Below are positions 7,529 through 58,011 of a DNA stretch of 64,000 nucleotides, piece by piece. A model generated the notes under the pieces. That model saw only the letters and a list, made by a program, of their open reading frames with translations, was not told the DNA's origin and did not search any database. The stretch covers positions 248,001 to 312,000 of the forward strand of contig NZ_JAKSXZ010000110.1 in assembly GCF_022829465.1 (NCBI RefSeq), written 5' to 3'. Within the stretch, counting starts at the first letter, position 1. Each line of letters opens with the position of its first letter. Both the position numbers and the translations under genes were made by a program. The stretch is from Methylobacterium sp. J-067 (GTDB taxonomy: Bacteria > Pseudomonadota > Alphaproteobacteria > Rhizobiales > Beijerinckiaceae).

Positions 7529-8881
7529 TCAGCGGACGAGGCAGGGGCGCTTGTTGTCGAAGGTCCAGCCCGGGATCAGGGCCTGCATCGCGGCGGCGTC
7601 GTCGCGGGCGCCGAGGCCGTGCTGCTTGTAGAGTTGGTGCGCGGTCTCGACCTCGTCCCAATCGATCTCGATGCCGAGGCCCGGCCGCTCGGGGACCTGC
7701 ACGAGCCCGTTGCGGATCCGCAGGGGATCCCGGGTCAACCGCTGCCCGTCCTGCCAGATCCAATGGGTGTCGATGGCGGTCACGCGGCCCGGCGCGGCGG
7801 CGGCGGCGTGGGTGAACATGGCGAGCGACACGTCGAAGTGGTTGTTCGAGTGCGATCCCCAGGTGAGGTCGTGGTCGCGGCAGAGCTGCGCGACGCGCAC
7901 CGCACCGGCCATGGTCCAGAAATGGGGGTCGGCGAGGGGGATGTCGACCGAACCGAGCTGGATCGCGTGGCGCATCTGGCGCCAATCGGTGGCGATCATG
8001 TTGGTGGCGGTGGGCAGGTCGGTGGCCCGGCGGAACTCGGCCATCACCTCGCGGCCGGAGAAGCCGCCCTCGGCGCCGCACGGGTCCTCGGCATAGGCGA
8101 GAATGTCGCCCTTGCCCTTGCACAGGGCGATGGCCTCGTTCAACGACCACGCGCCGTTCGGATCGAGGGTCACGCGGGCCTGCGGGAAGCGCCGCTTGAT
8201 CGCGGTGACGGCCTCCATCTCGGCTTCGCCCGCCAGCACACCGCCCTTCAGCTTGAAGTCGTTGAAGCCGTAGGCCTCGTGCGCGGCCTCGGCGAGGCGG
8301 GCGACGGTCTCGGGCGTCAGGGCCTCCTCGTCGCGCAGGCGGAACCAGCCGTCGCGGGCCTCGGGCTCGCGGTAGGGCAGGTCGGTGCGGCGGCGGTCGC
8401 CGACGTAGAACAGGTAGCCGAGCATCTCGACCGCATCGCGCTGCTGGCCTTCACCGAGGAGCGCGGCCACCGGCACGTTCAGGTATTGTCCGAGCAGGTC
8501 GAGGAAGGCGGATTCCACCGCCGTGACGGCGTGGATCGTGATGCGCAGGTCGAAGGTCTGGAGGCCGCGACCGCCGGCATCCCGGTCCGCGAAGTGGCTG
8601 CGCATCGTATTGAGGACGGCGTTCCAGGCGCCGAGCGTCTTGCCGACGATGAGGCTCCGCGCCTCTTCCAGCACCCCCCGGATGCCCACGCCGCCGGGGA
8701 CTTCACCGAGGCCGGTCGCGCCGGTCGAGTCGGTGAGCACGACGAGGTTGCGGGTGAAGAACGGGCCGTGCGCGCCCGAGAGGTTCAGCAGCATGCTGTC
8801 GCGGCCGGCGACGGGCACCACCTTCATGTCGGTGATGACGGGGGTGTTGCGGGCGGCGTGCTGGGTCTGTTCGAACGGCAT
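7529..8881 (-). CDS. gudD: Glucarate dehydratase
   Basis: GudD is an enolase-superfamily enzyme that dehydrates D-glucarate to 5-keto-4-deoxy-D-glucarate. The 450-aa protein is close to the E. coli length (446). The expected catalytic segments occur in order: DFKLKGG (the KxK base), TLDPNGAW and [10 protein letters not shown] (metal ligands), and [10 protein letters not shown] (the active-site His). The reading frame continues upstream to 10348, but only as a shadow of the transporter gene. The ATG at 8881 has GGGAGG six bases before it. It lies 71 bases after gudP in the same operon. Confidence 0.95.
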
Positions 8882-8952
8882 GGTCTGCCTCCCTGGATGC
8901 GTTTTTAGTGTTCGGAGAGGGAGGCCCGCCCCGAGGAGCGGGCCCGGGGCTT

Positions 8953-10308
8953 TCAGGGCTGGGCCTTCAGCTCGACGCGACGGATCTGGCCGACGACGAC
9001 GAGGTAGCAGAACACCGCGGCGAGGGCGTTGGCACCGACGAACACCAGGGCGCCGTTGAACGAGCCGGTCTGCTGGACGATGTAGCCGATGATAATCGGC
9101 GTCGTGATGCCGGCGGTGTTGCCGAAGGTGTTGAACAGGCCGCCGGAGAGGCCGCCGCTTTCCTTGGGCGAGGTATCGGCCACCACAGCCCAGCCCAGCG
9201 CCCCGACGCCCTTGCCGAAGAAGGCCAGCGCCATCAGCCCGACCACGAGGGCGTCGGCCTGGACGTAGTTGCAGCCGATGATCGCCATCGAGACCAGCAT
9301 GCCGGCGACGATCGGGATCTTCCGGGCGGCGGTGAGCGAGTAACCCCGGCGCAGCAGCACGTCCGAGATGAAGCCACCGAGGATGCCGCCGATGAAGCCA
9401 CAGAGGGCCGGCAGCACCGCCGCGAAGCCCGCTTGCAGGATCGAGAGGCCGCGCTCCTTCACGAGGTAGACGGGGAACCATGTGAGGAAGAAGTAGGTGA
9501 GCACGGTGATGAAGTACTGGCCGAAGTAGATGCCGAGGAGCATCCGGTTCGACAGTAGCTGCTTCAGGGTACGCCCCGCCTCGCCGGCCCCGCCGGAGCG
9601 GGCGCCGTCCATCACCATCAGGCCACCGCCTTGACGGATGTAGTCGCGCTCGGCGCGGCCCACCATCGGGTGGTTCTCCGGCCCGTAGACCACCTTCAGC
9701 CACAGCAGCGCGAAGGCGACGCCGAGCATGCCCATCACGGTGAAGACGTGGTGCCAGGAGTAGGTGTGGACGATCCAAGCCATGAGGGGCGTGAACAGTA
9801 CGGTCGCGAAGTACTGCGCCGAGTTGAAGAAGGCCGAGGCCATGCCGCGTTCGCGCGCCGGGAACCATGCCGCGACGATGCGGGCGTTGGCCGGGAAGGC
9901 GGGCGCCTCGCTGAACCCCACGAGGAGGCGCAACGCGAAGAGCATGATGACGGCGGTGAGGCCGGTGAAGAACCCGACGGCGCCCTGGATCAGGGTGAAG
10001 CCCGACCATACGGCGATGGAGGCGGCGTAGACCCACTTCACGCCGAACCGGTCCAGCAGCCAACCGCCGGGGATCTGCGCCAGCACGTAGGACCACGCGA
10101 AGGCGGAAAAGACGTAGCCCATCTGGATGGGCGAGAGGCCGAGTTCCTTGGCCATGTCCGGCCCGGCGATCGAGATCGTCGCCCGGTCGGCGTAATTGAT
10201 CGCGGTCGCCATGAAGAGCATCAGCGCGATCAGGAGGCGCACGCGGCCGCGCTTGACTCCCGAGGGGGCAGCCGCGTCCGCCGCAGCGGTGGTGGTCGTC
10301 ACGTCCAT
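8953..10308 (-). CDS. gudP: MFS transporter for glucarate/galactarate-type sugar acids
   Basis: This is a 451-aa proton-coupled importer of the anion:cation symporter (GudP/D-galactonate) branch of the major facilitator superfamily. About 12 membrane segments can be read. The first-helix signature [18 protein letters not shown] and the helix 2-3 loop [12 protein letters not shown] are typical of the branch. The position between kdgD and gudD indicates the substrate class. Exact substrate preference (glucarate, galactarate or both) is inferred from context. Confidence 0.9.
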
Positions 10309-10410
10309 GGGCGTTCTCCCGGGTGGCCGCGCCCGTTTTCGGACGCATCGTTCTCCGCCGTTGGCCGGCGTGTCGTCTTGGATAGGGGCGGCGTCACCGC
10401 CCCCGGATGG

Positions 10411-11325
10411 TCAGCGGCGGTCGCCGATCAGGGCCTTCAGCTCGGCCAGTTCGCCGGCATCGAGGTCGGTGAGCGGCGAGCGCACGGGGCCCGCGTGGCG
10501 GCCCACGGCGGTCATGCCGGCCTTCACGATCGACACGGCGTAGCCGCGCTTGCGGTTGCGGATCGCGATGTAGGGGAGGACGAAGGCCTTCAGTTCGGCA
10601 TAGACCGCGTCGCGGTCCCGGCGGCGCACCGAGTCGTAGAACGACAGCGCCCATTCCGGCAGGAAGTTGAAGATCGCCGAGGAATAGGTGGTCACGCCCA
10701 TTTCCAGGTAGGGCAAGGCGAAGGTTTCGGCGGTGGGCAGGCCGCCGACATAGGTCAGGCGATCACCGAGGCCGGCATAGACGCGGGTCATCAGCTCGAC
10801 GTCGCCGACGCCGTCCTTGAAGCCCACGAGGTTCGGGTTGCGCTCACACAGGCCGGCGAGGGTGGTCTCGTTCAGCTGCGCGTTGGCGCGGTTGTAGACG
10901 ATGATGCCGAGCTTGGTCGCCTTGCACACCGCCTCGATATGGGCGGCGAGGCCGGCCTGCTCGGAGCCGACGAGGTAGGGCGGCAGGAGGAGGATGCCGT
11001 CGGCGCCGGCCGCCTCGGCGGCCTGGGCCATCTCGACCGCGAGCGCCGTGCCCTGGCCGGCGGGGGCGATGACCGGCGTACGGCCGCGGGTCTCCTCGAT
11101 GCAGGCGCGCAGCACCCGGTCGATCTCGGCGGGGGTCAGGGAGAAGAACTCGCCCGTGCCGCCGGCCGCGAACAGGCCGGAAACCTTGTAATCGGCGAGG
11201 CGGGAAAGGTTGTCGCGGTAGGCCGCTTCGTCGAAGCTGAAGTCGTCGCGGAAATGCGTGACCGGGAACGACAGCAGGCCGGAGCCCAGCTGCTTAGCCA
11301 TCTCCGCTGGGTTCATCCGCGCCAT
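10411..11325 (-). CDS. kdgD: 5-dehydro-4-deoxyglucarate dehydratase
   Basis: KdgD belongs to the DapA/NAL class I aldolase family. It dehydrates and decarboxylates 5-keto-4-deoxy-D-glucarate to 2,5-dioxopentanoate. The 304-aa protein has [15 protein letters not shown] (carboxylate-binding loop), IIVYNRANA (the tyrosine) and [11 protein letters not shown] (the Schiff-base lysine). I start at ATG 11325 because GGGAG lies 6 bases upstream; the ATG at 11331 would sit directly on that site. It is the first gene of the operon and is divergent from the LysR regulator. Confidence 0.94.
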
Positions 11326-11433
11326 CGTCATCTCCCATGATTCGCGCCGTTCGGGCGTCTGAACTCTGGGTAGGGCTCCCTAATTGTCGCGTCCAACGTT
11401 GATTTTGGATTGATTATCCCGGATGCTGCATCA
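11326..11433. promoter_or_regulatory. Divergent kdgD / LysR control region
   Basis: These 108 bases lie between the divergent starts of the glucarate operon and its LysR-type gene, the classic layout for LysR autoregulation and inducer control. The AT-rich stretch about 11375-11420 contains the palindrome AACGTT and a repeated GATT core (GATTTTGGATTGATTAT). I could not fix one clear T-N11-A operator. Confidence 0.45.
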
Positions 11434-12324
11434 ATGTTCGATCTGGGACACGCCCGCAGTTTCGTCGCGGTGGCCGAGGAGCTGCATTTCGGCCGCGCCG
11501 CCGCGCGACTGAACCTGACGCAATCGCCCCTCTCCCGGCAAATCCAAATGCTGGAGCAGACGCTGGGGGTGACGCTGCTCGAACGGACCACCCGCGCGGT
11601 GCGGCTGACGCCCGCCGGCCGCACCTTCGTGGCCGAAGCCTACCGGGTGATCGCGGCAGCGGAGAACGCGGAGCGCGTCACCCGCCGCGCCGCCCGTGGC
11701 GAGAGCGGGATGATCCGACTCGGCTTCACCGCCGCCTCGGCCTACCGCATCCTCCCCCGCCTCGTGACGCATCTGCGCGACCGGCTGCCGGAGATCGACC
11801 TCGCCCTAGAGGAGATGGTGTCCGGCGAGCAGATCCAGGCGCTGGAGGGCAACCGGATCGACCTCGCGCTGCTGCGCCCGTCGCCGGCCCTCTCGGAGAG
11901 CGCCATCGAGGCGGTGCCGCTCACGCGGGAACGCCTGATCCTCGCGGTGCCGCAGGGCCATCGCCTCGCCCTCGGCCGGGCGCCGACCCTGGCCGATCTC
12001 GACGGCGAGCCGTTCGTGACATGGTCGCCCCGGGGCGGACGCTACTTCATCGACCTGCTCGCTGCGCTGTTCGAGGGCGGCGAGGTCCAGCCCCGCGTGG
12101 TGCAGCGGGTGAATCAGGTCCACGCGATGCTGGCTCTGGTCGGCGCCGGGCTCGGCGTCGCCCTCGTGCCGGACGGCGCCCGCAGCATCCGGGTGGCGAA
12201 CGTCACCCTACGCGCCATCCGGTTGCCGGCCTCGGCGCAGCCGGAACTGCACTTGGCCTCGCGGCGGGGCGACGCCAACCCGTGCCTCTCCTCGGTGCGA
12301 GAGGTGGTCGAAAACGCCTTTTAA
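11434..12324 (+). CDS. LysR-family regulator, probable activator of the glucarate operon
   Basis: The product is a 296-aa transcription factor. Residues 1-60 form the winged helix-turn-helix: ARSFVAVAEELHFGRAAARL and TQSPLSRQIQMLEQ are textbook LysR. The remainder is the two-lobed inducer-binding domain with IRLGFTAASAY at its start. The subgroup resembles CatR/BenM-like proteins. An in-frame TTG at 11410 would add eight residues; I prefer the ATG at 11434 because MFDLGHARSFV is the usual family start. Divergent placement from kdgD suggests it senses glucarate, galactarate or a pathway intermediate, which is an inference. Confidence 0.88.
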   Translation: MFDLGHARSFVAVAEELHFGRAAARLNLTQSPLSRQIQMLEQTLGVTLLERTTRAVRLTPAGRTFVAEAYRVIAAAENAERVTRRAARGESGMIRLGFTAASAYRILPRLVTHLRDRLPEIDLALEEMVSGEQIQALEGNRIDLALLRPSPALSESAIEAVPLTRERLILAVPQGHRLALGRAPTLADLDGEPFVTWSPRGGRYFIDLLAALFEGGEVQPRVVQRVNQVHAMLALVGAGLGVALVPDGARSIRVANVTLRAIRLPASAQPELHLASRRGDANPCLSSVREVVENAF

Positions 12325-52666: not shown

Positions 52667-52751
52667 GCGGGTATGGCGGAATTGGTAGACGCGGGCGACT
52701 CAAAATCGCCAGCCGCAAGGCGTGGGGGTTCGATTCCCTCTACCCGCACCA
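52667..52751 (+). tRNA. tRNA-Leu (anticodon CAA)
   Basis: The 85-nt cloverleaf has acceptor arms GCGGGTA (52667-52673) and TACCCGC (52741-52747), discriminator A and an encoded CCA. The anticodon loop CTCAAAA gives anticodon CAA at 52701-52703. The long variable arm and the GGTTCGATTCC T-arm mark a class II leucine tRNA. Confidence 0.97.
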
Positions 52752-52760
52752 CAAGCCGGC

Positions 52761-53276
52761 TCAGTCCTCTTCGGACAGGTCGCGGAACTCGATCTGCACA
52801 GAGCTGTAGAGCCGCTTCAGCCACATCTGCGCTTCCGCGAGCTTGGCCCGGTTCAGCTCCGTTTCCTCCTCCGCGCGCCGCGCGCGGGCATCGGCCATCT
52901 GCGCCGCGAGTTCGGCCCGCTCGGCGCGCAGATGCGCGTCCCGCGCCGCCGATTCCGCGAGGCGCAGGCGGCGCTCCGTCTCTTCCAGGCGGTGCATCGT
53001 GCCGTCGAGGACAGCCTGCGAATGCTGCACGACGTCCTGCGCGAAGCGGCGTGCCTGGCGCATCCGCGAGCCGACATCGCGGATCAACTCGATGGCGGCG
53101 GGCCAGTTCGGCTCGTCCTCCATCTCGTCCGCGCGAGCCGGCTCGGGGAAGAGCTGCACCACGCCGCTTCCGTGCCCTGGGGCCAAGAGTTGGCGCAGAG
53201 TCGGGCGGTTCTCCCAATCGTTGTCGGACAAGGCGTCCCCGTCGGTGTCCGGGCGATCGTGGAGTTGGCGCGACAT
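52761..53276 (-). CDS. Coiled-coil paralog A of an unrecognised four-member family
   Basis: I do not recognise this 171-aa protein. It has no signal or membrane segment. After a disordered N-terminus (1-55), NWPAAIELIRDVGSRMRQAR (Trp58) matches a helical motif in three other genes of the region. A long heptad-rich coiled coil (about 75-148) is rich in Arg, Glu and Ala. The C-terminal motif AEAQMWLKRLYSSVQIEF (WL at 152-153) is the second shared signature. ATG 53276 overlaps the TGA of paralog B by one base, so the two are coupled. It lies 9 bases from tRNA-Leu. A structural or polar-localisation role is conceivable. Confidence 0.75.
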   Translation of the reverse strand: MSRQLHDRPDTDGDALSDNDWENRPTLRQLLAPGHGSGVVQLFPEPARADEMEDEPNWPAAIELIRDVGSRMRQARRFAQDVVQHSQAVLDGTMHRLEETERRLRLAESAARDAHLRAERAELAAQMADARARRAEEETELNRAKLAEAQMWLKRLYSSVQIEFRDLSEED

Positions 53277-53779
53277 CAGCGCGGGGCCTCGTCGAGGACG
53301 GTGAACTCGTTGAAGATCGTCTCGTGGATCTGCTTGAGCCACGCTTCCGAGATCCGGGCGCGCTCCTCGGCCTGGGCGGCGCGCTCCTCGGCGGCGCGCA
53401 CCCGCTCCATCGCGGCGACTTGCAGATCGGAGGCCTGCGCCTCCGCCGCCCGGACGCGCTCCTCCGCCATCCTCATGTCGGCGCGGGCGCGTTCCAGCAA
53501 TTCCTCGACATGCGATTCCCGCTCGCGGGATTGCGCCTCGACCTCGCGGATGCGGGACGCCGTCGAACGGATGCGGTCGATGAGGACGGACCAGTCCGTA
53601 TTGGGCTCGCGCATCGTGGACCTCGACAAGTCATCGTCGATGGAAGACCCGAAGGCCCTCAGGATCGTCGCAATGCTGCCCGTCGGCTGCGCGGCTGCGG
53701 GGGCGGTCACGGTCGGTGTCTCGAAGTCTTCGCTCCGTTCAAACCGCAGTTTCTTCACGGGATTGATGTTCGGAAACAT
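53276..53779 (-). CDS. Coiled-coil paralog B of an unrecognised four-member family
   Basis: This 167-aa protein is first in a two-gene unit with paralog A. The N-terminal 55 residues look disordered (TAPAAAQPTGSI). DWSVLIDRIRSTASRIREVE (Trp63) is the shared N-side helix. The coiled coil (ERVRAAEAQASDLQVAAMER) runs to SEAWLKQIHETIFNEF (WL at 147-148), the shared C-side motif. No enzyme domain or export signal is present. The family resemblance to paralogs D and E is by my reading of the motifs. Confidence 0.75.
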   Translation of the reverse strand: MFPNINPVKKLRFERSEDFETPTVTAPAAAQPTGSIATILRAFGSSIDDDLSRSTMREPNTDWSVLIDRIRSTASRIREVEAQSRERESHVEELLERARADMRMAEERVRAAEAQASDLQVAAMERVRAAEERAAQAEERARISEAWLKQIHETIFNEFTVLDEAPR

Positions 53780-54150
53780 GGTGGACGGTGCCCGCAGGAA
53801 GGCAAGGCTCGACGCTGAGCCTTGTCGTTAATTTTGTCTGAATTGGCCTGCGACTCAAGTCCCGCCGCCACGGAGCGGCCAAGTTTTCCCTGATTTCGAG
53901 GGCGTTTCGCCCGTTCATCCGCAATGACAGTTAATGTCCATCGGCGCGCGAGAACTTCGCTTTAGAGCCCCGCGACAATCGCTGCGGCCGGCTGCCTAGA
54001 GTTGTACAATTGGGGTTGGGCAGCCTCACCCAGCCCACGGGTGTGGAAACTGACCGTGTGCAACCTTTCCAGGGAAAACGAAAAATGTGATCAATCCGCT
54101 GCGCGAGACGGGCGAGAGCAGCCAATTCCGTCACCGCAGGCTTGGATGGG
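53780..54150. other. Divergent intergenic region, no gene seen
   Basis: The 371 bases between paralog B and the metallophosphoesterase contain no supportable ORF. An 8-bp palindrome (TTGTACAA, 54002-54009) and an AT-rich run near 54075-54100 (GGGAAAACGAAAAATG) are the only points seen. Both divergent promoters should lie here. Confidence 0.5.
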
Positions 54151-54801
54151 ATGAACACCTACGCCATCGGCGATATTCATGGTTGCGTCGATGGCCTTCG
54201 TCTCGTCCTGGAGCGGATCGCGACGCATGCGGGCGAGGATCCGCACCGGATCGTCTTGCTCGGCGACTACGTCAACATCGGCCCGGATACGCGCAAGGTG
54301 CTCGATCTGCTGATTGACCGGCCCGCGGTCATGGCGCTGCGCGGGCACCATGACATGATGCTGCTGGCCGCCGCGCGGGGCGATGCGCGCTCCATCTGGA
54401 ACTTTGATTATCATGGCGGCGGCGCGACCCTGCGCAGCTTCGGGGTCGCGAAGGCCGCCGAGATCCCGGCTCTCTACATCGACTTCCTGCGGCAGAAGCT
54501 GCTGCGCTACGTCGAGGACACCGAGCGCGTCTTCGTCCACGCCTCCATCGACCCGGCGGTCGGGAACATGGAATATCAGGACGACACGATGCTGCTCGGC
54601 GCGCGGACGCCGCTCGCCCCCGCAGCCGATCTCGGTGCGCCGTACCTCGTCCACGGGCATTTCCCGCAGGCCGATGGGCTGCCGGAGATCCTGCCGCACC
54701 GCTGCAACCTCGACACGGACGGATGCCGCACGGGCGTGTTTACCTGCGGCATCTTCGACGAGTCCCAGCCTGATCCGGTGGATATCATCCAGGTGCGTTA
54801 G
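54151..54801 (+). CDS. Metallophosphoesterase, PP2A-like family with altered metal motifs
   Basis: The 216-aa protein has a calcineurin-like phosphoesterase fold. GDIHG (residues 7-11) is intact and LLGDYVNIGPD keeps the GD pair (38-39). However, the usual GDxVDRG reads GDYVNIG (Asn42 for Asp), and the usual GNHE/D reads GHHD (His66 for the metal-ligand Asn). VHASIDP and VHGHFP supply the later histidines. A protein or nucleotide phosphatase role is possible with changed metal use or specificity. GGATGGG precedes ATG 54151; a TTG at 54142 is an alternative. It sits between coiled-coil genes. Confidence 0.82.
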   Translation: MNTYAIGDIHGCVDGLRLVLERIATHAGEDPHRIVLLGDYVNIGPDTRKVLDLLIDRPAVMALRGHHDMMLLAAARGDARSIWNFDYHGGGATLRSFGVAKAAEIPALYIDFLRQKLLRYVEDTERVFVHASIDPAVGNMEYQDDTMLLGARTPLAPAADLGAPYLVHGHFPQADGLPEILPHRCNLDTDGCRTGVFTCGIFDESQPDPVDIIQVR

Positions 54802-55139
54802 CCCGGCTTACTTTTGCCGGGGATGCCGCGAAGACGATGGCTGAAGGTTGCAAATATGCAACAAGCAGAAAAACCTCTACTTTGGAGTGTTTTCACAGGC
54901 AATGCGCTCACGTGGAAATTGAGATCCGTCTGGCAAAATCCCGAATTGACTGGCGCCGGGGGCAGAAGTTAAGCGACGAGAACGGCTCGGTGGGCCGGCG
55001 CAACCTCGCGAAACGCCCCTCGGGCTGTTCACGGCGGGCGGTGCCGCTCTGGTCTTGATGCCTGTAAATCAATAGGGTCTCTCAACCGCGCGATACGAGG
55101 GGTGGCCGGGTTGTGGCTGAGCGCGGAGGAGATCGGGCA
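54802..55139. other. Intergenic region upstream of the large coiled-coil gene
   Basis: These 338 bases have no convincing gene. A 6-bp hairpin at 54802-54821 just past the phosphoesterase stop could be a weak terminator. A 5-bp repeat TTGCA/TGCAA is at 54848-54861. The stretch 54840-54900 is AT-rich and may carry the promoter of the large coiled-coil gene, whose ribosome site GGAGGAG lies at about 55125-55131. Confidence 0.5.
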
Positions 55140-56846
55140 ATGGCATGGATGCCGATCAAACGCCTGCTGGGGCAGGGATCGGGATCGTCGGATTCGTCGC
55201 GGAACTCGGACTCCGCGTGGCTGCCGGAACTGGAACTTGAGTCCCTGAGGCCGGAGCCGAAGCGCCAGCAGCATCCGCCGCAGCAGCGCCAGCCGCAGCA
55301 GCAGCAGCCGCGTCAGCAGCAGCCCACCCCGCCGCCGCCGCGCGAGCGCGACCCCGACGAGTATGAAGAGATGCGGCAGGCGCCGCGCGAGCAGCCGCGC
55401 CAGCAGCAGGAGGCGCCGGCGGCGCATCCCTACAGCGCGTTCGACGCCATCGGCCAGCGCAACGAGATGGTGCGCGTGCGCATCAGCCAGATGATGGAGC
55501 GGCTGGACGACCTGAAGACCCTTCAGGCGGATTTCGCGCAGATCCTCGAGCCCCTGGCCGGCGTCGCGGACGAGCTTCCGCAGGCGAAGATCAAGATCGC
55601 CGAACTCGAAGTCCTGCTCGCCCGCGAGCAGGAGCATATGCGCAACCTGCACCGCGAACTGAACGAGGTGAACGGCCGGGCCGCGTCCTCGTCCAACGAA
55701 CTCGCGGCGGTCTCGACGGAGTTGCAGCGCCTCGAAACGCAGTTGCGCGAGCGCGACGCTGAGAACGAGGAGTTGCGGGTGCGCGTCCGCGACCGGACGG
55801 TCGCGGTCGAGAACATGGAGCGCCAGCTTTTCGCGGAGACCGAGCAGGTCCGCGCGCTGACCGGCGAGAACAAGTCGCTGCGCATCGAGGCGCAGGCCGC
55901 CGACCAGGCGATGACCCGCGCCGAGCGCGAGTTGAACGACCTGGGCGAGCGCCTGTCCCTGAGCGAGCAGGACGCAAGGCGCCTTCAGGCCCTGGCCGGC
56001 GAGCAGGCGGTGCGCCTGTCCGAGGCCGAGGCGCGGGTGGTCGAGCTGACCCAGCAGATCGAGGTGCTGCGCCAGCGCGCCCGCGATCTTGAAACGCAGC
56101 TGAGCACCGAGATCGCCACGCGCGAGCGGGCCGAGGGCCAGTTCGAGACCGAGATGGCGGCGATCCGCGCCGACCGCGCGAACCTCGCCATGAAGCTGGA
56201 CGCGTCCCTCGGCCGGGCCGCGACGCTGGAACAGCTCCTCGCCCAGGTGCGCAGCCAGTTGCGCGAGCGGGAGGAGAACGCCCGCACCGCCGACCGGACG
56301 CTCAAGGAGCTTCAGATCGAGCGGACGACCCTCGACCGGCGCCTTGAAGGCTTGCAGGCCGAGCTTCAGCGGCAGACGGAGCGCGTCTCCGAGATCCAGC
56401 GCCTGCGGGCGGAGGCGGATAGCCGCGCCGACATGCTCACCAAGGCGCTGGCGGCCAAGGAAGCCGCCATGGATCAGTCGCAGACCCGCGTCGCCGCCCT
56501 GGCCGACCGGATGGAACAGCTGGGCCGTCGGCACGAGGCCGAGAAGGCTGAATTGCAGGCCGCCAACCGGCGTCTCGTCGAGGAGTTGCAGAACGAGCGC
56601 TCCGAGCGGGCCCTCGCGCAGGGCGCCCTCGACATCGCCCGCGAGACCCGCGCCTCGCTGCAGAAGCAGCATGAGGGTTTGAAGCGCGCCGTCCGCAACC
56701 TCCATGGGGTCGATCCGGCCACGCTGCTCGGGCTCTCGATGCCCGAGGCGCGGACCGAGCGCGCCGAGGAGAGCAATGTCACCCCGTTCGCGCCGCCGGA
56801 GCGCGAGGGACGTGACACGAAGCCCAATAACGACATGAATGCGTGA
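55140..56846 (+). CDS. Large filament-like coiled-coil protein
   Basis: The 568-aa protein has a short basic start (MAWMPIKRLLGQGSGSS), a Gln/Pro-rich low-complexity segment (residues about 40-95), and a nearly unbroken coiled coil from about 110 to 525. The coil is rich in Glu, Arg, Ala, Gln and Leu heptads (for example IKIAELEVLLAREQEHMRNL). A short tail ends SNVTPFAPPEREGRD. There is no membrane or enzyme segment. Crescentin-like or other intermediate-filament-like proteins of alphaproteobacteria have this plan, but coiled coils mislead similarity. ATG 55140 follows GGAGGAG. Its stop overlaps paralog D (GTGA), so both are made together. Confidence 0.78.
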   Translation: MAWMPIKRLLGQGSGSSDSSRNSDSAWLPELELESLRPEPKRQQHPPQQRQPQQQQPRQQQPTPPPPRERDPDEYEEMRQAPREQPRQQQEAPAAHPYSAFDAIGQRNEMVRVRISQMMERLDDLKTLQADFAQILEPLAGVADELPQAKIKIAELEVLLAREQEHMRNLHRELNEVNGRAASSSNELAAVSTELQRLETQLRERDAENEELRVRVRDRTVAVENMERQLFAETEQVRALTGENKSLRIEAQAADQAMTRAERELNDLGERLSLSEQDARRLQALAGEQAVRLSEAEARVVELTQQIEVLRQRARDLETQLSTEIATRERAEGQFETEMAAIRADRANLAMKLDASLGRAATLEQLLAQVRSQLREREENARTADRTLKELQIERTTLDRRLEGLQAELQRQTERVSEIQRLRAEADSRADMLTKALAAKEAAMDQSQTRVAALADRMEQLGRRHEAEKAELQAANRRLVEELQNERSERALAQGALDIARETRASLQKQHEGLKRAVRNLHGVDPATLLGLSMPEARTERAEESNVTPFAPPEREGRDTKPNNDMNA

Positions 56847-57346
56847 GTGAAGTCACCATGATGGAACAGGTTCGCATGCCCATCGAGGACGACGCCGATG
56901 CGGCGGCCTATGCCGCGCTCAAGGCTCATGCCGCTGCTGCCGCCGCCGCGGCCGAAGCCGTGCAGAACTTCGAGCCGGTACCGCTGCCGGGCAACGTCTC
57001 GTTCTTCCCGTCGCAGCCGCAGCCGAGCGAGGGCGGCCCCGTCCGCGACTTCAAGTCGGCCATCGACCTCATCAAGGAAGCGAGCGAGGCGATCCGCTTC
57101 TCCGAGGAGCGCGCCTCCGAGTTGGAGCAGCAGCTCCATCAGGTTTCCGGCCGCGCGGCCGAGCAGGTAAAGGCCCTCGAACTTCAGGTCGCCGCGCTGG
57201 AGCGCCGGCTGATCAAGTCCGAGGAGCGCGCCCGCGCCGCCGAGGTCCGCGCCAACGATGCAGAGACGTGGCTGTCGCGCCTGCACGACACGATCATCAC
57301 CAGCTTCCGCCGCCCGCTCCACCCCGGTGAGGGCGAGTCGCACTGA
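56843..57346 (+). CDS. Coiled-coil paralog D of an unrecognised four-member family
   Basis: This 167-aa protein begins at a GTG overlapping the large coiled-coil gene's stop; an ATG at 56858 is an alternative. An Ala-rich start (residues 18-40) is followed by DFKSAIDLIKEASEAIRFSE (the N-side helix, Phe70 in the Trp place), a shorter coil, and AETWLSRLHDTIITSF (WL at 143-144), the C-side motif. Translational coupling suggests it partners the 568-aa coiled-coil protein. Confidence 0.75.
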   Translation: MSEVTMMEQVRMPIEDDADAAAYAALKAHAAAAAAAAEAVQNFEPVPLPGNVSFFPSQPQPSEGGPVRDFKSAIDLIKEASEAIRFSEERASELEQQLHQVSGRAAEQVKALELQVAALERRLIKSEERARAAEVRANDAETWLSRLHDTIITSFRRPLHPGEGESH

Positions 57347-57528
57347 GGTTCATCCGCGCGCAGGTCGTGGCGGGTCCGGCGCCGGGGGGCGCCGTGAAGG
57401 TATCCGTTCGGGCACCCTACGGTCTCTGAGCCGCGCGGTGGCCCTGTCGGAATCATGCTGAGGGGACCGGCCGTCTCGGCGCCCGGCCTCACCGTGAGCG
57501 GCGTTGCGATCTGGAACGGGGCGGAGCG

Positions 57529-58011
57529 ATGGCTGAGGGCAACCGGGTGGTCGAGACGCGGGACAGGACGCTGGATACCGCGCCGCTCATGATGACGCCG
57601 ACCATGCGTAAGGAATTGAAGGCGCTCAGCCCGATCGAGCGCGGCGGCGAGATCGCCAAATCGGGCTCCGACCTGCCAAAGCCGATCAAGCGGTTCGGCC
57701 AGGAGGAATGGGCGGCCGTCTGCGAACGCATCCAGGATGCGGCGGAGTACATCCAGGAGATCGAGGCGAGCCGGCATCAGCAGGAGATGCAGGCCCAGAA
57801 GATCTTTGCGAACATGCAGGACGAGATCGCCGCCGCCAATGCCCGCGCCCTGGCGGCCGAGCGGATGCTGCAGGACGTGCAGCACCGGGCGACCAATGTG
57901 GTGAAGACCCTCGAAGACAAGCTTCAGGCGGCCGAAGACCGCGCCCGCGAAGCCGAGGATTGGCTCAACCGCATCTCCGAGGCGGTGCGCTCTAATCTGA
58001 ACTTCCCGTAG
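57529..58011 (+). CDS. Coiled-coil paralog E of an unrecognised four-member family
   Basis: The 160-aa protein starts at ATG 57529 with GGAG upstream. Residues 1-55 carry no known domain. EWAAVCERIQDAAEYIQEIE (Trp61) is the N-side motif. A coil (IFANMQDEIAAANARALAAE) leads to AEDWLNRISEAVRSNLNF (WL at 145-146). It is 182 bases after paralog D, so it may have its own promoter. It converges on the GT21 gene. Confidence 0.75.
   Translation: MAEGNRVVETRDRTLDTAPLMMTPTMRKELKALSPIERGGEIAKSGSDLPKPIKRFGQEEWAAVCERIQDAAEYIQEIEASRHQQEMQAQKIFANMQDEIAAANARALAAERMLQDVQHRATNVVKTLEDKLQAAEDRAREAEDWLNRISEAVRSNLNFP

Follow-up and report, generated by a model that had tools for sequence, protein, structure and literature searches.

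In the window analysed here, a stretch of 64,000 nucleotides from Methylobacterium sp. J-067 (home genome, 5.36 Mb), four genes at 52.7-58.0 kb encode small coiled-coil proteins, A to D, which by their sequences are true paralogs of one unnamed family. Crescentin (CreS), the best known bacterial intermediate-filament-like protein, forms a cell-bending filament; the 568-residue coiled-coil protein encoded just before C is, by homology, crescentin-like, i.e. intermediate-filament-like, and a colinear homolog of CreS. Sequence comparison establishes the family itself, the linkage of its C branch to crescentin, and a coil length that changes in quanta. We propose that A-D are probably accessory coiled-coil rods that serve crescentin and are hetero-oligomeric.

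Four paralogs and a crescentin homolog

The locus carries B and then A on the minus strand; the plus strand holds a phosphoesterase, the crescentin-like protein, C and D. A preliminary description had recognised four coiled-coil paralogs and a 568-residue coiled-coil neighbour; the family proved to be real, and the crescentin identity of the neighbour had been missed. The distances it gave from the N-side aromatic residue to the WL pair near the C-terminus (94, 84, 73 and 84 residues) were confirmed, as was the coupling of the genes: B and A have one base in common, and the start of C overlaps the crescentin stop by four bases.

52761..53276, minus strand: paralog A, 171 residues; W58 to WL(152), 94 residues; no family over cut-off
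53276..53779, minus strand: paralog B, 167 residues; W63 to WL(147), 84 residues; upstream of A
53294..53593, minus strand: predicted continuous helix of B (AlphaFold2, AF2), residues 63-162, from the N-motif Trp
54142-54801, plus strand: calcineurin/ApaH-type phosphoesterase (library match)
55140..56846, plus strand: crescentin-like protein, 568 residues; PF19220 at E 4.1e-109, 365.3 bits against a cut-off of 100
55575..56651, plus strand: crescentin rod domain, Rod_CreS 1-359 (PF19220 match)
56772..56789, plus strand: SNVTPF in the crescentin C-tail, an instance of the conserved motif [x]N[VI]xx[FLIMV] (tail comparison)
56843..57346, plus strand: paralog C, 167 residues, GTG start; F70 to WL(143), 73 residues; crescentin-linked branch
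57044..57112, plus strand: N-end motif, residues 68-90 of paralog C, RDFKSAIDLIKEASEAIRFSEER; high conservation across 30 crescentin-linked orthologs and in alignment A4
57239..57307, plus strand: C-end motif, residues 133-155 of paralog C, AEVRANDAETWLSRLHDTIITSF; conserved, and the place where the AF2 helix 70-155 stops
57529..58011, plus strand: paralog D, 160 residues; W61 to WL(145), 84 residues; in the slot after C

Alternative starts for the crescentin-like open reading frame (ORF) are GTG 55113 (577 residues) or 55149 (565 residues). The slot after C is occupied by D in the window and by a divergent small ORF in other genomes.

The crescentin assignment is based on several comparisons. 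The 568-residue protein matches all 359 positions of Rod_CreS (PF19220), and a search of the PDB with it returned Caulobacter crescentin as the sole match at E ≤ 1e-5. Its alignment with 8afl is colinear (residues 103-518 against 28-443, E 1.5e-13), and a 12-row profile matched Caulobacter crescentin at E 3.1e-33. Among the named loci, the nearest crescentins to that of the window are from Methylobacterium sp. J-076 and a Beijerinckiaceae metagenome-assembled genome. A Hyphomicrobiales crescentin-like clade has already been published (PMC12700997).

Models built from any three of A-D found the fourth; of 500 shuffles that preserved heptad phase, none scored as well. On the home genome, a four-row profile of A-D returned A-D and then three further members, E (247 residues), F (172) and G (183), from a second cluster (L047); the first other protein appeared at E 0.51. 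The four paralogs described at one locus thus stand, and three more elsewhere in the genome had escaped notice. The claim that no named family has this plan also held. None of A-D exceeded the cut-off of any curated Pfam or NCBIfam family, nor did E-G and seven relatives exceed any in Pfam; the best sub-threshold match of A-D was that of C to PRK09039 (E 4e-6, 26 bits against a cut-off of 615). Searches with A-D gave nothing at E ≤ 0.01 in PHROGs, PADLOC yielded no more than weak matches to generic coiled-coil stretches (best E 2e-4, 18 bits), and the small proteins found generic coiled coils in the PDB (best E 0.0056). A search with PF05974 gave no lead.

In a profile search of a large protein set, 7,996 candidates were scored and 129 of them reached E ≤ 1e-5; among the 120 matches listed, names were absent, hypothetical or generic (two Zn-ribbon, one segregation-ATPase). 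One distant relative, P0136, exceeds the Pfam cut-off for Alanine_zipper (PF11839; 26.3 against 23.1 bits). The PF08364 label of P0028 reflects a real IF2-associated stretch; this protein matches C over 34% only and was not counted as family. For P0057, the precomputed PF27881 label was not reproduced in a Pfam library search.

The family is marked by its ends, which exceed the middle in both conservation and specificity. With end-motif models trained on A-G, 137 of the 159 family segments taken from other loci outranked the best non-member, as did 56 with the middle alone; this test covered 12,529 segments, with labels derived from a related profile (A3) and a choice of loci rich in family members. 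As read from coordinates, several top non-members were third genes or small genes upstream of crescentin. In none of these searches did the end motifs match merely random coiled coils or gather unrelated annotated families.

Three origins or memberships were considered and rejected. Descent of A-D from crescentin was rejected on comparison of the family with the crescentin rod (hhalign, A3 against A6, probability 1.5%). For a phage or plasmid origin, B was unmatched in phages, and B and C were unmatched in plasmids. Membership in a defence system was set aside on the PADLOC result. In the region 52667-52761, a tRNA-Leu(caa) gene lies beside the B-A pair, its 3' end 9 bases from the end of A; the 3' ends of tRNA genes are a common type of site for inserted DNA.

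Among known systems, CreS itself (PF19220) is represented here by the 568-residue gene; A-D are not crescentins. Alanine-zipper lipoproteins (Lpp/OprI) and tropomyosin-like coils are likewise alanine-rich, short heptad coils and give weak matches, but A-D all fall below the curated cut-offs, and we know of no conserved W or WL ends in those families. Other bacterial intermediate-filament-like proteins named in PMC10873595 are FilP and Scy. Both are coiled-coil cytoskeletal proteins, much longer than A-D. CtpS (CTP synthase) is reported to interact with crescentin and to regulate curvature in Caulobacter (PMC10873595); CtpS is an enzyme, whereas A-D are small coiled coils. Searches of the open-licence PMC literature, which leave subscription papers mostly uncovered, brought up no operon partner of this type for crescentin.

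Linkage of the C branch to crescentin

Crescentin was found in 37 of 111 genomes of the genus and a family match (E ≤ 1e-4) in 81. At all 37 crescentins, a family match lies downstream on the same strand, 181-454 nucleotides past the rod match, and in 30 of 30 loci the gap from the crescentin gene to the family gene was -4 to 197 nucleotides. Because gene calls missed some genes (for example crescentin at L229 and L246, and family genes at L245, L250 and L063), six-frame matches were used to count adjacency. In a 38th genome (G816), C lies at the edge of a contig and is immediately preceded by a crescentin-type tail. The surroundings of these 38 loci are diverse: the 34 with an upstream gene read carry 19 different first-upstream labels, making about 14 neighbourhoods by our own grouping. 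Within the family, a strict tie to crescentin is confined to the C branch. Since a C-type gene stands behind every crescentin found in the genus, the members of this family are good candidates for crescentin partners.

In a crescentin tree of 66 rows, all 42 partnered rows fall in one branch of 45 (Shimodaira-Hasegawa-like approximate likelihood-ratio test, SH-aLRT, 99), and the partner label changes twice, against 19.7 times in shuffles. The remaining three rows of the branch, G032, G070 and G099, are unpartnered and look like a single loss, the forks inside the branch being partly open. This tree was built from hits spanning at least 200 residues; seven of the 37 genus crescentins, which lacked a locus, were left out, three genomes were entered twice, and one G095 locus was also entered twice. 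In G346, a genome from another taxonomic family, creS, C and a third gene occur in that order, the crescentin is nested within the genus, and the C protein falls among genus C proteins in the family tree. Joint transfer is the simplest reading.

Outside the genus, the association is found in part of the genomes. In a sample of the taxonomic family (119 genomes), 25 had crescentin over the cut-off, 21 had a family member (E ≤ 1e-5) and 10 had both (Fisher p 0.002). The gene adjoins crescentin in 8 of the 23 crescentin-bearing genomes of this sample that lie outside the genus (G007, G013, G048, G051, G054, G073, G111 and G116); the family gene of G048 is truncated at a contig end, and the crescentin gene of G051 contains an internal stop. 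In the order sample (297 genomes), the family occurs in five, crescentin in five and both in four, two of them from the genus, with adjacency in three of the four. The class sample (385 genomes) revealed either protein in the home genome alone, at low sensitivity; this absence is weak evidence because scoring was limited to 5 or 9 candidates in each genome.

Several crescentin loci have unusual arrangements. In G051 (L029 and L059, 9261-10763), two family genes stand behind the crescentin-like gene that is broken by the in-frame stop. L049, from G095, has two tandem crescentin-like genes (8619-10091 and 10276-11715) with no small partner adjoining. At L112 (about 7900-9102, genome G110), a divergent coiled-coil frame with weak crescentin similarity (25.6 bits) lies directly upstream of a C-type gene. 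In four other genomes, crescentin is directly preceded by a further small coiled-coil gene whose product weakly resembles the family (E 4e-5 to 4e-4):

L053, 7946-8515: small upstream coiled-coil gene
L054, 10404-10946: small upstream coiled-coil gene
L055, 8361-8855: small upstream coiled-coil gene
L062, 9037-9459: small upstream coiled-coil gene

Helix, coil length and tandem genes

Each protein is predicted to form a single long helix. For C, AF2, which was applied to single chains only, gives one confident helix of 86 residues (70-155) and a less certain one at 16-41; for B, it gives a helix of 100 residues (63-162) in which the 10-residue mean of the predicted local distance difference test (pLDDT) is 88-98, the N tail lying mostly below 50. 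In both proteins modelled, the predicted helix starts at the N-motif aromatic residue. The N tails of the family are about 55-70 residues long; predicted disorder covers that of B and most of that of C.

The distance from this aromatic residue to the WL pair takes the values 66, 73, 80, 84, 87, 91, 94, 95, 98, 101, 102, 108 and 117, and also 82. All except 82, which is found in three weak members, equal 66+7a+11b; thus, 13 of 14 values and 140 of 143 copies conform, and the earlier suggestion that the coil changes length by heptads and hendecads is upheld. Copies were counted if both anchor columns contained a residue, as was so for 143 of the 181 aligned domain hits. The probability of such a fit by chance is 8e-5, a figure to be read with the base of 66 chosen after the fact and the subfamilies not independent. 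Coiled coils tolerate length changes of a heptad or a hendecad; the spacing rule therefore supports an unbroken coil with both ends in register. In A-G, the N-end motif, the coil and the C-end WL occur in order and the spacing follows the rule (E, F and G have 117, 84 and 102), with M replacing the N-side Trp in F. Among crescentin-linked C proteins, the spacing is 73 in 17 loci and 66 in 13 (30 loci). A family tree of 141 distinct sequences among the 143 copies groups the C, B/D/F, A and G members by type and spacing. The family thus offers a natural set of coils that differ in length almost exclusively by steps of 7 and 11 residues.

A motif, x[VI][VILMF]x[FL], occurs in 76 of 141 N tails against 5.3% of shuffles, most often at 25-26 residues from the Trp on its N-terminal side; the pattern was chosen after the tails had been viewed, and only 16 of 37 crescentin-linked members have it. 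Examples are SGVVQLFPE in A of the window and NVVPLFAE and DRVVALFSG in relatives. It bears a faint likeness to the tail motif of crescentin. A position-specific scoring matrix of 37 crescentin tail 8-mers reached p ≤ 0.05 in 15 of 141 family N tails. Because that is about twice the expectation, among related sequences, we do not claim one short motif common to both tails.

Behind C, a further small ORF (at least 143 residues) begins 8-182 nucleotides on in 27 of 30 loci. Three groups of these ORFs (20 loci) gave hhalign probabilities of 95, 89 and 54% with the family, against 6, 0.2 and 1.5% for a reversed control, and of 1, 0.1 and 2.4% with crescentin. In these three groups, the third ORFs appear to be remote relatives of the family, the case for the third group (54%) being weak. 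Away from crescentin, 23 of 31 family runs are tandem (15 pairs and 8 triplets) and 8 are single; these runs come from 30 loci picked among the better matches. The E-F-G cluster (L047, 7637-9548, contig C58) is such a triplet, and like triplets recur elsewhere at other sites; we take its flanking genes to be aldo/keto-reductase-like and spermidine-synthase-like. Other genera have single members at recurring places (L098, L099, L101, L102, L103, L105 and L106) beside genes that, from their N-terminal letters, are presumably EttA-like, MoeB/ThiF-like and citrate-lyase-like. This distribution suggests crescentin-free roles for the single members.

Proposed function and its alternatives

We consider it reasonably likely that A-D are small coiled-coil rods and that C and the following gene form a dedicated, hetero-oligomeric accessory that docks on crescentin. 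The third gene behind C and the tandem pairs and triplets are the grounds on which we infer hetero-oligomers. C and its neighbor (D in the window) would co-assemble into a short hetero-oligomeric coiled coil. This rod would dock, via its conserved ends and tails, on crescentin or on its dimer-dimer joints, where it would tether, crosslink or limit the filament and so may affect cell shape. The B-A pair and the other pairs and triplets would be sister modules, some of them acting without crescentin. The earlier idea that A-D are subunits of one assembly is plausible from their sequences.

A possible docking site is the tail motif of crescentin, N[VI]xx[FLIMV], whose typical form is SNVRPF and which begins 10-26 residues from the C-terminus. 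It is present in 48 of 62 distinct crescentin tails, against 1.2% of shuffled tails, the pattern having been picked after the tails had been inspected. With a partner, 38 of 39 distinct tails have it; without one, 10 of 23 do.

Some facts weigh against a dedicated accessory. The presence of the tail motif without a partner weakens its reading as a docking site. Of the 74 genomes of the genus that lack crescentin, 44 still have a family member, and the family as a whole is therefore not crescentin-specific; the co-occurrence that had been put forward as a check holds, within the genus, for the C branch (37 of 37). The co-occurrence of crescentin and family within the genus (Fisher p 5e-7) is only indicative, and the counts are not independent, because the genomes are related. 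In the taxonomic-family sample, 15 of the 23 genomes that have crescentin and fall outside the genus lack an adjoining family gene, and in G017 both genes are present and not side by side. Finally, Chelatococcus reniformis crescentin alone restores curvature to Caulobacter lacking creS (PMC12700997); a partner is therefore not obligatory everywhere.

It is possible that these proteins are instead self-sufficient short coiled-coil oligomers, such as small scaffolds or cytoskeletal rods, with C merely co-regulated in the crescentin operon and making no contact. The many members without crescentin nearby or in the genome are in keeping with this idea, as are the tandem pairs and triplets with varied neighbors and the single members in other genera. 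It accounts poorly for the 37 of 37 linkage across about 14 neighborhoods, the single branch, the apparent joint transfer to G346, and a C branch whose genus members, among the sequences of the family tree, all lie beside crescentin save the one in G816, where the contig breaks off and a crescentin tail adjoins C. Quite unlikely, in our estimation, is that C and its neighbor regulate the amount or assembly of crescentin, as chaperones or inhibitors holding dimers, and are not structural partners. The same linkage data would fit, as would the small size, the overlap of the C and crescentin genes in the window and helix ends that may be able to cap the termini of coiled coils; however, crescentin is said to polymerise without co-factors (PMC10873595), and an assembly chaperone is thus not required. 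Present data do not separate a regulatory from a structural role. Convergence of four unrelated genes on coiled-coil composition is scarcely credible: alanine- and glutamate-rich coils, weak generic sub-cut-off matches and the Alanine_zipper score of P0136 speak for it, but the leave-one-out models with phase-preserving shuffles contradict it, the home-genome search is clean to E 0.51, and the A-D model found no crescentin-only protein at E ≤ 10.

A dedicated accessory would bear on a known question of crescentin biology. According to a 2024 structure paper, direct binding of crescentin to membranes has not been convincingly shown in vitro, and attachment likely occurs via another, unidentified cellular component (PMC10873595). 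A lineage-specific partner fits this proposed component. The same paper states that crescentin also curves E. coli (PMC10873595), which, with the Chelatococcus result, would make the partner a modifier and not a requirement.

As a compact, unnamed family that travels with crescentin, these proteins offer a specific candidate for a partner of the filament, open to genetic testing. More tentatively, and we regard this as rather doubtful, crescentin in Methylobacteriaceae and their relatives could be a multi-protein cytoskeleton comprising a filament and at least two length-coded rods for envelope tethering or register, with related rods working elsewhere without crescentin. If so, the rods would supply the proposed membrane-attachment component of this lineage.

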